A stretch of 18,092 nucleotides of DNA from Victivallales bacterium (GTDB lineage: Bacteria; Verrucomicrobiota; Lentisphaeria; Oligosphaerales; Oligosphaeraceae): positions 1 to 18,092 of the forward strand of contig JAFRLP010000323.1 of assembly GCA_017431185.1 (NCBI GenBank). The letters are read 5' to 3'. Within the stretch, counting starts at the first letter, position 1. Each line of letters opens with the position of its first letter. Made by a program: the position numbers and the translations under genes. Shown here piece by piece: positions 1,332 to 4,118 of the stretch. The notes under the pieces are model-generated. The model made no database searches. It was given only the letters and a program-made list of their open reading frames with translations, and was not told the origin of the DNA.

Positions 1332-4118
1332 CTATTTCATCAGAACGGCCCCCAGTTTCTGTTTCAAGTCGTCTATGTCAATCGGTTTCGCAATATGCGC
1401 CTGCATCCCCGCCGCCTCGGCAGCCTTGATGTCCTCGGGGAAAGCGTTGGCGGTCATCGCCAGAATAGGGACGGACGCCAGTTTCGGCTCCTTCAGGGAA
1501 CGAATCTCCCTGGTGGCCTCATATCCGTCCATCACGGGCATCTGAATGTCCATCAGGACGGCGGCATAGTAGCCCGGCTGCGACGCGCTGACCTTCTCGA
1601 CGGCGACCTTTCCGTTCTCCGCCGTCTCAACCTGGAGCCCCATCTGCTGCAGGAGCATTTGCGCGATTTCAAGGTTGACGGCGTTGTCCTCCACAAGCAG
1701 AAGTCGTCTTCCGGAAAAGTCGAAAGACCCGCTGGCGAAAGCCGTCTCCTTGTCGAATTCCCTCTCCATGTCATTTTTGCCGGCGAAGCGGAATTTGACT
1801 CGGATGACAATCTCCGTTCCCTTTCCCTGCGCAGTGAACACCTCGATGTCCCCGCCCATCAAATCGACAATGCTCTTGGTGATGGCCAGGCCGAGGCCGG
1901 TGCCCTCCATGCCGCTGTCGGTGGAGGTCCGTTCCCGCTCGAAGGCGGTGAACATCTTCGCGGCGAACTCCTTCGTCATGCCGATGCCGGTGTCCTTGAA
2001 GCGCAGTTCGTAGGCCCCGTAGCCATCCTCCTCGTTGTCCATCTCGTAGATGGAGACCGAGATGGAGCCGCCCTCCGGCGTGAATTTGTAGGAATTGGAG
2101 ATCAGGTTCAGCAGAACGCGGTTGAGATTGTTCTTGTCGCACCACACATACCGATTTCGGACTTGGGAGGTGTGTACGGAAAAGTCCAGCCGCTTCTGCT
2201 TCATCTGAGTCGAAAACAGTTCATTCATCTCCTCAACGCACAGGCACAGGTCCGTCGGATTGTATTCCAGTTCCAGCTGGCCGTTCTCCAGGCGGCTCAT
2301 CTCCAGGATGTCGTTGATGAGCGTCAGCAGCTGCTGGCTGGACTTTTCAATCTTGAGCAGGTAACTGCGCAGCATATTGGGCGGCTCATTCAGCGCGAGG
2401 GTCGTATAGCCGATGATGGCGTTCATCGGAGTGCGTATGTCGTGGGACATGTTGAACAGGAACTGGCTTCTGACAAGGCTCTTCTCCGCCATGCGTATCT
2501 TTTCCCGCTCCGTGGTCTCGTGCTTCTTCTTCACCAGTTCCTGGACATACCGCAGGACAAGTATCCCGACGAAGATGATGAGGATGGACACGACGCCGCC
2601 CTTGACCAGGGCGCTCCGCATCCCCTCCATGCTCTCCTGGCGCATCTGCAATTTTCCATGCCACATCAGGGCCGTATAGACCAGAAGCGCGAACAGCACA
2701 AAGCCGGCGGAGGCCATGCTGCTGTATTCCGCCAGGGAACTCCGTTTGACGGTATGCCAATAGAAGACAAACCCGAGCAGGCACCAGAAGGAGAGGAGCA
2801 GAAACGCCTCGCAGCTCATGGCGTCCAGCGCCACCAGGCGCGGGACAATCTGGGCGATTCCGAAGGAGACGGATATCACCACGCCAATCAGGCCAGTCGC
2901 CATGATTCGGTAATTGGCCTCCGTCTTGGCGATCTTGTACGACGCGGCGGACGTGTATCCGTAGGCGACAATGGCCCCGAAGGCGGTCAAGTCAATGAAC
3001 CAGTTGAGCGTATTCCTGCCGAAAAGCGAGATGAGGACCGAAAGGATGATGACGAAGAAGATGCAGTATTCCGACTTTGAGAATTTATTCGAGATAATCT
3101 TGTCCTCCGCCATTGTCGCGAGCAGATTCACGATGGCGCGGTATGCGCCGATGATGCCGGTCAAAATGGCGGCCACCGCGGTTATGCCGATGATGACCAG
3201 GCCCGGCGTGCCCATCTTTGTCTGCGCGGCGTAAAACGTCGGCAGGGAGATGATTCCCTTCAGATTGTCGAGGTCTGCGATGTAGGCGGACCATGAGCCA
3301 TACCCGTCCGGGATTGCGGAGACGCTGACCAGGGTCATGGAGGCATACGAAAGGGCCGCGAAGACGATGGCGCAGAAGATGACCCGCCTTGTCCGGCCAA
3401 CGGGAAAGCCGAAGTTCGCCGTGTCGAAGCTGGGCACCTCGAAGCCCACGAAGGCCCAGGGCGCAAGAATCACCAGGCTGAAGATGGCGAACCCTCTGTT
3501 CACGTTCTGGTAGCCGAAGGAGCAGATGACGCCGCGCCAGTCCGCATGGGGGAGGCAAAAGGCGGTCGTGGCCACCATCCCCGCAAGAAGAATCACGGCA
3601 AGCACAGTGGCAAGCCGCCTCAGGAGCGACTTCGCCACCAGGAAAAGCGAGCCGACCCCTGCCAGCGCCCCCACGGAAAGGAGAATCTCATAGAGGTGGA
3701 CAGGCTTGCCCGCAATGGTGTAATAGTATCCCTGGTGGACGACATCCCCCAGCAGTACCTGGACGACAAGAAACAGGGCTGTCCCATTCAGAAACACAAC
3801 AGTCAGGTAGGAAAGACAGAGAAACCAGGAGCAGAGGAAGGCGTGGTCCCGCCCCAGCGCATTCCTGGCATAGGAGTAGAGTCCGCCTGTCCGCGGGGAA
3901 TGGGTCATCAGGAAGGAGACGCTGGAGCCGACAATCAGCATGATGACGAGCCCGATCGCCAGGGAGATGATGGTTCCCATCGGCCCGGCCACAGGCAGGA
4001 ACGTCGAGCCGGGCACGACGAAGGCCCCCCAGCCGACCATGCAGCCGAAGGCCATCGCCCAGACGTCAAGGGTGGAGAGCGACCTCTCCTTGCGCACTAT
4101 GTCCTTTTGTTCCGTCAT
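1332..4118 (-). CDS. APC-family amino-acid permease fused to hybrid histidine kinase and receiver
   Basis: The 928-residue protein begins as a full APC-superfamily permease, with about 12 membrane segments over residues 18-455. The TM1 unwinding motif GWGAFVVPG is at 29-37 and the TM6 motif WAFVGFEVPS at 221-230. Two further hydrophobic segments (about 468-486 and 507-524) lead through a charged helix to a HisKA domain with SHDIRTPMN (phosphorylated H559). Next come an HATPase domain (N box LLNLISNSYKF, G boxes DTGIGM and GTGLGL) and a C-terminal receiver whose acceptor is D857 in LMDIQMPVMDG. The likely role is membrane sensing, or transport-coupled sensing, of an amino acid or amine, with phosphotransfer to its own receiver. 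The ATG at 4118 lies 6 bases after the upstream kinase stop, so the two are probably translationally coupled. Transporter-kinase fusions are known (CbrA, an SSS-family case), but a complete APC permease is a less usual input domain. Substrate and real transport activity are unknown. Confidence 0.93.
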   Translation of the reverse strand: MTEQKDIVRKERSLSTLDVWAMAFGCMVGWGAFVVPGSTFLPVAGPMGTIISLAIGLVIMLIVGSSVSFLMTHSPRTGGLYSYARNALGRDHAFLCSWFLCLSYLTVVFLNGTALFLVVQVLLGDVVHQGYYYTIAGKPVHLYEILLSVGALAGVGSLFLVAKSLLRRLATVLAVILLAGMVATTAFCLPHADWRGVICSFGYQNVNRGFAIFSLVILAPWAFVGFEVPSFDTANFGFPVGRTRRVIFCAIVFAALSYASMTLVSVSAIPDGYGSWSAYIADLDNLKGIISLPTFYAAQTKMGTPGLVIIGITAVAAILTGIIGAYRAIVNLLATMAEDKIISNKFSKSEYCIFFVIILSVLISLFGRNTLNWFIDLTAFGAIVAYGYTSAASYKIAKTEANYRIMATGLIGVVISVSFGIAQIVPRLVALDAMSCEAFLLLSFWCLLGFVFYWHTVKRSSLAEYSSMASAGFVLFALLVYTALMWHGKLQMRQESMEGMRSALVKGGVVSILIIFVGILVLRYVQELVKKKHETTEREKIRMAEKSLVRSQFLFNMSHDIRTPMNAIIGYTTLALNEPPNMLRSYLLKIEKSSQQLLTLINDILEMSRLENGQLELEYNPTDLCLCVEEMNELFSTQMKQKRLDFSVHTSQVRNRYVWCDKNNLNRVLLNLISNSYKFTPEGGSISVSIYEMDNEEDGYGAYELRFKDTGIGMTKEFAAKMFTAFERERTSTDSGMEGTGLGLAITKSIVDLMGGDIEVFTAQGKGTEIVIRVKFRFAGKNDMEREFDKETAFASGSFDFSGRRLLLVEDNAVNLEIAQMLLQQMGLQVETAENGKVAVEKVSASQPGYYAAVLMDIQMPVMDGYEATREIRSLKEPKLASVPILAMTANAFPEDIKAAEAAGMQAHIAKPIDIDDLKQKLGAVLMK

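Follow-up and report, generated by a model that had tools for sequence, protein, structure and literature searches.

The fusion gene and its surroundings

The window (the whole stretch of Victivallales DNA analysed here, 18,092 nucleotides long) encodes a protein in which an APC-type amino-acid permease is fused to a hybrid histidine kinase and a receiver (Table 1). The original prediction described a single 928-residue frame containing the permease, two extra helices, HisKA with H559, HATPase and a receiver with D857, and the open reading frame, Pfam assignments and homologs agree with this description. The permease part scores 53.9 bits against PF13520 (gathering cut-off 27), spanning positions 1-407 of the 427 in the profile, and 23 of 23 aligned members match this profile at E ≤ 0.001 and contain all four domains. 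Within the same set H559 is invariant, as are D811, D857 and K911 of the receiver, and the fusion has the complete features of a hybrid kinase (HisKA, HATPase_c and REC domains; His, N-box, G-box and Asp residues). A LeuT-type APC fold of the permease part is computed from a structure model and a fold comparison (VIA-align rows) covering Foldseek's top 1000 chains. A PDB sequence search with the N-terminal 526 residues alone gave no match at E ≤ 1, whereas a profile search did match the PDB. The modelled helices of the extra module span residues 470-492 and 497-576, the second being TM14 running into the DHp. Neither an SSS domain nor an Amt match is present in the window protein (Pfam, E ≤ 0.01), and a STAC four-helix domain was not found between TM14 and the DHp, a stretch of about 29 residues that the model places within the single helix 497-576.

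Table 1. Positions in the window of the fusion gene, its domains and motifs, and the adjoining kinase gene
Feature	Fusion residues	Window position	Strand	Basis
APC-permease / hybrid histidine kinase / receiver fusion, 928 aa		1332..4118	(-)	ORF, Pfam, homologs
APC-fold permease domain, 12 TM	14-460	2739..4079	(-)	
TM1 unwound motif, GWGAFVVP	29-36	4011..4034	(-)	
TM6 motif, PWAFVGFEVPSF	220-231	3426..3461	(-)	
EL4, extracellular loop TM7-TM8	270-293	3240..3311	(-)	
TM13-TM14 module	461-520	2559..2738	(-)	model helices
Helical linker	521-549	2472..2558	(-)	model: continuous with TM14 and first DHp helix
HisKA (DHp)	550-613	2280..2471; H559 codon 2442-2444	(-)	Pfam
HATPase_c (CA)	661-776	1791..2138	(-)	Pfam
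Receiver	807-922	1353..1700; D857 codon 1548-1550	(-)	Pfam
Upstream PAS-HisKA-HATPase-REC-REC hybrid kinase		4125..7526	(-)	Pfam

The upstream hybrid kinase comprises about 1133 aa from its likely start (MFDKNFELN), within an open frame that extends to 7781, and is probably co-expressed with the fusion, since its gene ends 6 bp before that of the fusion. It matches counterparts directly upstream of the fusion at two other loci (61% over 706 aa at L001; 67% over 668 aa at L183), where genes for REC-GGDEF-EAL, Hpt, HK-REC-REC and APC-HK-REC proteins follow in this order on one strand, the Hpt of L001 being assigned by its likeness to that of L183. The window retains the last two genes of this order. 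An Hpt lies beside the fusion at L183, L177, L184, L178 and L176 (Pfam), a REC-GGDEF-EAL gene at L001, L183, L177, L184, L178, L015 and L168, and a version with a second GGDEF at L186 and L187; these lists come from neighbours scanned at a subset of loci, several with plain metabolic genes, and are not frequencies. Because Hpt and REC-GGDEF-EAL genes adjoin the kinase, control of c-di-GMP is likely in some relatives. In the window no Hpt or REC-GGDEF-EAL gene or remnant was found, the matches obtained being of receiver level and confined to the two kinase genes; the downstream relay partner must therefore lie elsewhere or differ. Neighbouring genes gave no consistent substrate signal among the loci examined. 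Those beside fusions encode GMP synthase (L007), alpha-amylase (L014), a MoxR-type AAA protein (L005), arabinose isomerase (L101), pyrophosphatase (L012), and adenylosuccinate lyase and asparaginase (L132). Promoter and terminator scans of the window yielded nothing usable.

Distribution, outputs and phylogeny

A protein search returned 1002 homologs at E ≤ 1e-20 among 7999 scored candidates, and each of the 120 listed, the window's own included, carries the four Pfam domains. The listed homologs bear the names Lentisphaeria, Victivallales, Oscillospiraceae, Mogibacterium and Clostridia and the annotation 'amino acid permease'; one named Lentisphaeria is 84% identical to the window protein. 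By title, the relatives derive mostly from gut or rumen sources (Lentisphaeria/Victivallales, Clostridia, Spirochaetales and Aeromonadales). The best 80 loci of a genome scan, many of which match the kinase part only, include near full-length matches in Erysipelotrichaceae, Lachnospiraceae, a 'Veillonellaceae' genome, Spirochaetales and Aeromonadales, as well as in the named strain Treponema sp. JC4. Among sampled genomes, permease matches were found in 9 of 348 in the phylum of G001 (3 with a frame of >700 aa), 9 of 247 in the phylum of G013 (3), 3 of 197 in the order of G019 (2), 7 of 197 in the family of G001 (4) and 16 of 200 in the family of G004 (14), counts that are not unbiased rates because the sets, outside which the window's own phylum lies, were centred on genomes already holding the gene, the cut-offs differed (1e-70 and 1e-120) and few candidates were scored (the best 4 to 8 per genome in most). 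Matches inside open frames over 700 aa are probably fused. In the family of G001 a contig end truncates one more match (L178), and G004 itself, one of the 14 long-frame genomes in its family, has one in-frame TAG in the permease part of its fusion frame (L098), reflecting error, decay or recoding.

The original prediction regarded this architecture as rare and possibly poorly described, and proposed counting its taxonomic spread. Homologs do occur in several bacterial groups, and with at least 1000 of them in the protein set the claim of rarity is not borne out; poor description held up, as the papers listed from searches of the open-licence PMC literature, some of these lists being capped, include none on the fusion of an APC permease with a histidine kinase or GGDEF domain. 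The one paper containing AA_permease, HisKA and HATPase gives them as separate domain labels in a legend on universal stress proteins (excerpts of PMC3673472). The prediction also named two ways in which it could fail: an assembly error, or an architecture both common and already characterised. The architecture proved common and, within that same literature, without a description. A wrong joining of neighbouring genes during assembly or annotation has a negligible probability: the window is a single contig, but the remaining 119 listed homologs, which come from several sources, have the same four domains, and the fusion is found in contigs of several groups, including one named strain record (Treponema sp. 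JC4, L013). The APC version of the transporter-kinase fusion is real, common and undescribed within the open-licence literature searched.

The permease module is joined to more than one kind of output. A search with a profile built from the permease part found 395 proteins at E ≤ 1e-10, and among the 120 listed there are at least nine GGDEF fusions (P0121, P0122, P0124, P0125, P0126, P0128, P0129, P0134 and P0219) and many proteins of about 555 aa with no output domain, some of the short ones being labelled partial. In the series P0192-P0240, many proteins of this length comprise the 12-TM permease and TM13-14 without output, and the ones read finish with a short charged tail. Such proteins may act together with separate kinases, or their own may have been lost. 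Other combinations include a 1445-aa APC-GGDEF-REC-GGDEF-EAL protein (L168) and, next to a receiver gene, an APC domain with His_kinase PF06580 and HATPase (L130). An APC-HisKA-HATPase-REC protein at L133 has a C-terminal Hpt whose score barely exceeds the cut-off. Two APC proteins with HATPase lack a HisKA match at E ≤ 1e-5 (L104 and L112); a custom kinase profile matches both, and their HisKA part may only be divergent. Inputs are swapped too, since a similar kinase carries a periplasmic solute-binding input, SBP_bac_3, at L017. By eye, P0219 combines a permease of the window's clade with a long TM13-14 loop that resembles the loop found in the other clade.

Some of these loci are unusual in themselves. 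At L168 (4333-14350), three consecutive APC sensors have GGDEF, GGDEF-REC-GGDEF-EAL (the 1445-aa protein) and HK-REC-REC outputs, with a REC-GGDEF-EAL gene and another hybrid kinase nearby. The kinase of L130 (138-4380) is of the LytS/YesM type and is separated from the APC domain by some 430 residues without assignment. The APC proteins encoded in tandem at L128 (393-5382) have HATPase at their end, and Pfam gives no HisKA match in them.

Permease domains from 96 rows were placed in a quick maximum-likelihood tree, rooted at midpoint for drawing only. All 79 fused or output-less rows (those with TM13-14) fall on one side of a branch with SH-aLRT 99, together with a single stand-alone permease, L103, whose own branch is very long. 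Outside the fused set are the remaining 16 stand-alone rows, of which P0203, L157, L179 and L180 adjoin it and 12 are further out. The GGDEF label requires three changes, forced even on starred branches alone, which may be gains or losses, and the output-less form requires one. An earlier tree of 94 rows, built with 24 of the 120 listed homologs (including the window and one picked by name), nine GGDEF proteins and 16 output-less ones, gave the same outline, the GGDEF label changing twice. Removal of 24 rows that were near-duplicates or redundant and addition of 26 led to the 96-row tree, for which profiles served to recheck the outputs assigned to twenty locus rows, and the labels of L119 and L102 were taken from longer loci. 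As the tree is rooted at midpoint, a single origin of the fused forms is the simplest reading, not proof. The related sequences suggest that the transporter part became a sensor, which was afterwards attached to several signalling outputs.

The substrate site and the coupling region

At residues 109, 227, 230, 231 and 325 the fusion differs from stand-alone APC relatives, as determined by mapping residues to GkApcT through a profile alignment, with residue roles from excerpts of PMC5803215, and by comparing 79 fused or output-less rows with 17 stand-alone rows. Position 227 (GkApcT Asp237) is E in 74/79 of the former and D in 15/17 of the latter. Stand-alone rows have P at position 230 and Q at position 231 (16/17 each), residues that occur there in 0/79 fused or output-less rows, which instead have S/T/A and H/F/L/N respectively. 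Position 325 (GkApcT Met321) is F in 15/17 stand-alone rows, compared with N, A, G, S or L in 75 of the 79 (F in three, M in one), and position 109 changes from P (14/17) to W or F (78/79). The main stand-alone exception is the 455-aa permease L103 (E227, T230, H231, L325); conversely, F325 is kept in three fused rows (L101, L105 and L119). In GkApcT, replacement of Met321 by Ser admitted arginine (excerpts of PMC5803215).

Other parts of the site are shared. W30 (aligned with GkApcT Thr43), W221 (GkApcT Phe231) and EL4 with W276 and Y279 are common to the fused rows and the four nearest stand-alone permeases; W30 is present in 78/79 fused or output-less rows, the remaining one having a gap, and the two EL4 residues are invariant in 79/79 and 4/4. 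P220, W221, G225 and F226 of TM6 are invariant in 23/23 aligned members, and D376, also common to the four nearest stand-alone permeases, is D in 73/79 and E in 6/79 fused or output-less rows. Across 57 dereplicated rows, the amino- and carboxyl-recognising positions have a mean entropy of 0.67, compared with 1.64 for 297 TM positions, a value as low being reached in a fraction of 0.0022 of 20,000 random draws; position 27 is the variable exception. The substrate-side set (103, 107, 321 and 325) is not unusually variable relative to TM positions in the same kind of test. The original prediction proposed checking for an intact pocket, and on these counts and entropies the answer is divided: the backbone-recognition site looks intact, and the inner gate and side-chain pocket have changed. 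The TM5 Lys (GkApcT Lys191, aligned position 176) occurs in 0/79 fused or output-less rows; its loss was considered as a mark of lost transport and ruled out, because it is missing in all 17 stand-alone rows too. The window has small residues at four of five side-chain positions given in PMC5803215 (S103, V224, G321 and A325), the exception being V107, larger than Ala, and in excerpts of that paper small residues at these positions characterize cationic amino-acid transporters. Given these residues and the acid E227 below them, arginine, lysine, ornithine or an amine may be named as candidate ligands, as a first guess and no more.

TM13-TM14 are missing in the stand-alone relatives examined, four of which (L143, L144, L157 and L159) end 8-16 residues past the permease match, the other stand-alone rows having tails of up to 60 residues. 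From residue 515 in TM14 to H559 the spacing is 45 residues in 179 of the 182 proteins with an H-box motif (from 271 examined, 89 without the motif being dropped; many rows are close relatives), with exceptions of -6 (P0218 and L100) and +7 (L012). Near-fixed linkers may occur in other kinases also, which would limit the weight of this spacing. The TM13-14 loop has 22 residues in nine of 23 aligned members, including the window, 27 in one and 54-58 in 13. Pairwise identity averages 43% in the APC part, 30% in TM13-14 and 60-69% in DHp, CA and REC.

A proposed route from carrier to receptor

As originally proposed, a complete APC-fold domain forms the input module of a hybrid histidine kinase, for which the SLC5-linked kinase CbrA is a fair analogue. 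The preferred reading, with a probability of about 0.58, is that the fusion is a transporter-derived receptor for an amino-acid-like ligand, joined to a hybrid histidine kinase and signalling via TM13-14. Most simply, an APC-family amino-acid carrier would have gained TM13-14 and an output domain once, and the APC sensory module would later have been reused with several outputs. An amino-acid-like ligand would bind at the unwound parts of TM1 and TM6, and its occupancy would alter the packing of the two APC-fold halves; TM14, as one continuous helix into the DHp, would relay this change as helix register or dimer packing, altering autophosphorylation of H559. Phosphate would then pass from H559 to D857, to an Hpt protein and to a response regulator (REC-GGDEF-EAL in some relatives), and net transport by the fusion would probably be reduced, altered or lost. 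The claim that a carrier reports its own flux or occupancy is unproven. The fused proteins differ from the nearest stand-alone permeases at several substrate-site and cytoplasmic-gate residues, and these differences fit a receptor with changed or lost transport no less well than a functional carrier.

The known systems bear on this reading in both directions. CbrA binds and transports L-histidine, and none of its kinase activities was significantly affected by L-histidine (excerpts of PMC7096432), which speaks against inferring ligand control from the analogy with CbrA. This result and the lack of an outgroup root in the tree weigh the receptor reading down, and the lower conservation of the APC part than of the kinase (43% vs 60-69%) counts against it. 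It is rather unlikely that the APC domain is instead a true transceptor of the kind proposed for CbrA, one that transports its substrate and informs the kinase of transport or of its conformational cycle. The full 12-TM fold with conserved TM1 and TM6 motifs, the sharing of D376 and EL4 with the four nearest stand-alone permeases, and the apparent modulation of autokinase activity by the transporting SLC5 domain of CbrA (excerpts of PMC7096432) would suit such a protein, but the fusion-linked substitutions in the cytoplasmic gate and of the pocket residue that corresponds to GkApcT Met321 would not, and in Ks-Amt5, also a fused transporter domain, ligand binding is coupled to His phosphorylation and transport is lost (excerpts of PMC5764959). 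Fusion alone does not imply loss of transport, because CbrA transports histidine though Ks-Amt5 has lost transport. Less probable still is an APC domain serving mainly as anchor or scaffold, with the signal read by TM13-14, their loop or the membrane state. Although the loop is 32-36 residues longer than the window's in 13/23 aligned members, it is short (22 residues) in the window and eight others; and although TM13-14 are less conserved than the kinase (30% vs 60-69%), as often in sensors, the APC domain is complete, more conserved than TM13-14 (43% vs 30% mean pairwise identity), and has its TM1/TM6 recognition positions among the more conserved TM positions.

Like CbrA, CrbS and RpuS (SLC5-STAC), the fusion combines a complete LeuT-fold transporter domain and a histidine kinase in one chain; unlike them, it has an APC-family domain (PF13520), two extra helices in place of STAC and, in the window protein, no PAS, and the output of its family varies among kinases and GGDEF. 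Many APC-fusion members belong to Clostridia, whereas SSS+HisKA was not found in Gram-positives 'at a first glance' (excerpts of PMC7918813). CbrA is called a rare example in a 2026 preprint on its structure (excerpts of PMC13022988). Ks-Amt5 likewise recruits a transporter domain as sensor without PAS, HAMP or STAC (excerpts of PMC5764959). It is, however, one characterised anammox protein with an Amt fold, whereas the APC fusions share the APC fold and form a large family. In contrast to AdiC, ApcT, GkApcT and mCAT1, the fusion has TM13-14 and an output domain and no TM5 Lys. Ssy1 is a eukaryotic amino-acid transceptor, and neither it nor Gap1 is known to be covalently joined to a histidine kinase or cyclase. 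The fusion resembles such proteins in the use of an APC-type permease in nutrient sensing (yeast Gap1, cited in PMC11109136). Reported transceptors are described as extremely few and, under a strict definition, exclusive to eukaryotes, and a prokaryotic case on another fold has been proposed (excerpts of PMC11109136).

Three findings are the most telling: all fused forms group together, outputs have changed among them, and a few gate and pocket residues changed along with fusion. A broader proposal is held tentatively, at somewhat under even odds: a single conversion may have made the APC fold a general bacterial sensory domain (TM13-14 added to the 12 TM), no longer mainly a carrier and attached to HisKA-REC, LytS-type kinases, diguanylate cyclases and GGDEF-EAL, through which an amino acid or amine outside the cell would tune the phosphorelay and c-di-GMP signalling of gut anaerobes. 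The family is large and bacterial, with one transporter fold driving several unrelated outputs and non-fused relatives available for comparison, and the conversion of carrier to receptor would become testable by domain swaps and a handful of changed residues. It also points to a c-di-GMP signalling input in gut anaerobes hidden by the annotation 'amino acid permease'.

Several neighbouring genes merit separate mention. In the window, a 631-aa protein without a Pfam or NCBIfam match at E ≤ 0.01 is encoded at 8980-10875 (+), an alpha-acetolactate decarboxylase gene lies upstream of the two-kinase unit (8157-8909, -), and directly downstream of the fusion, on the same strand, is a eukaryote-type Ser/Thr protein kinase gene cut by the window end (3-1220, -). 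At L182 (5255-9334), in a single case, a stand-alone permease gene stands beside one for a protein above the NCBIfam 'tyramine oxidase subunit B' cut-off and is also adjoined by a glutamate-symporter-like gene, neighbours that possibly hint at amine or amino-acid substrates.
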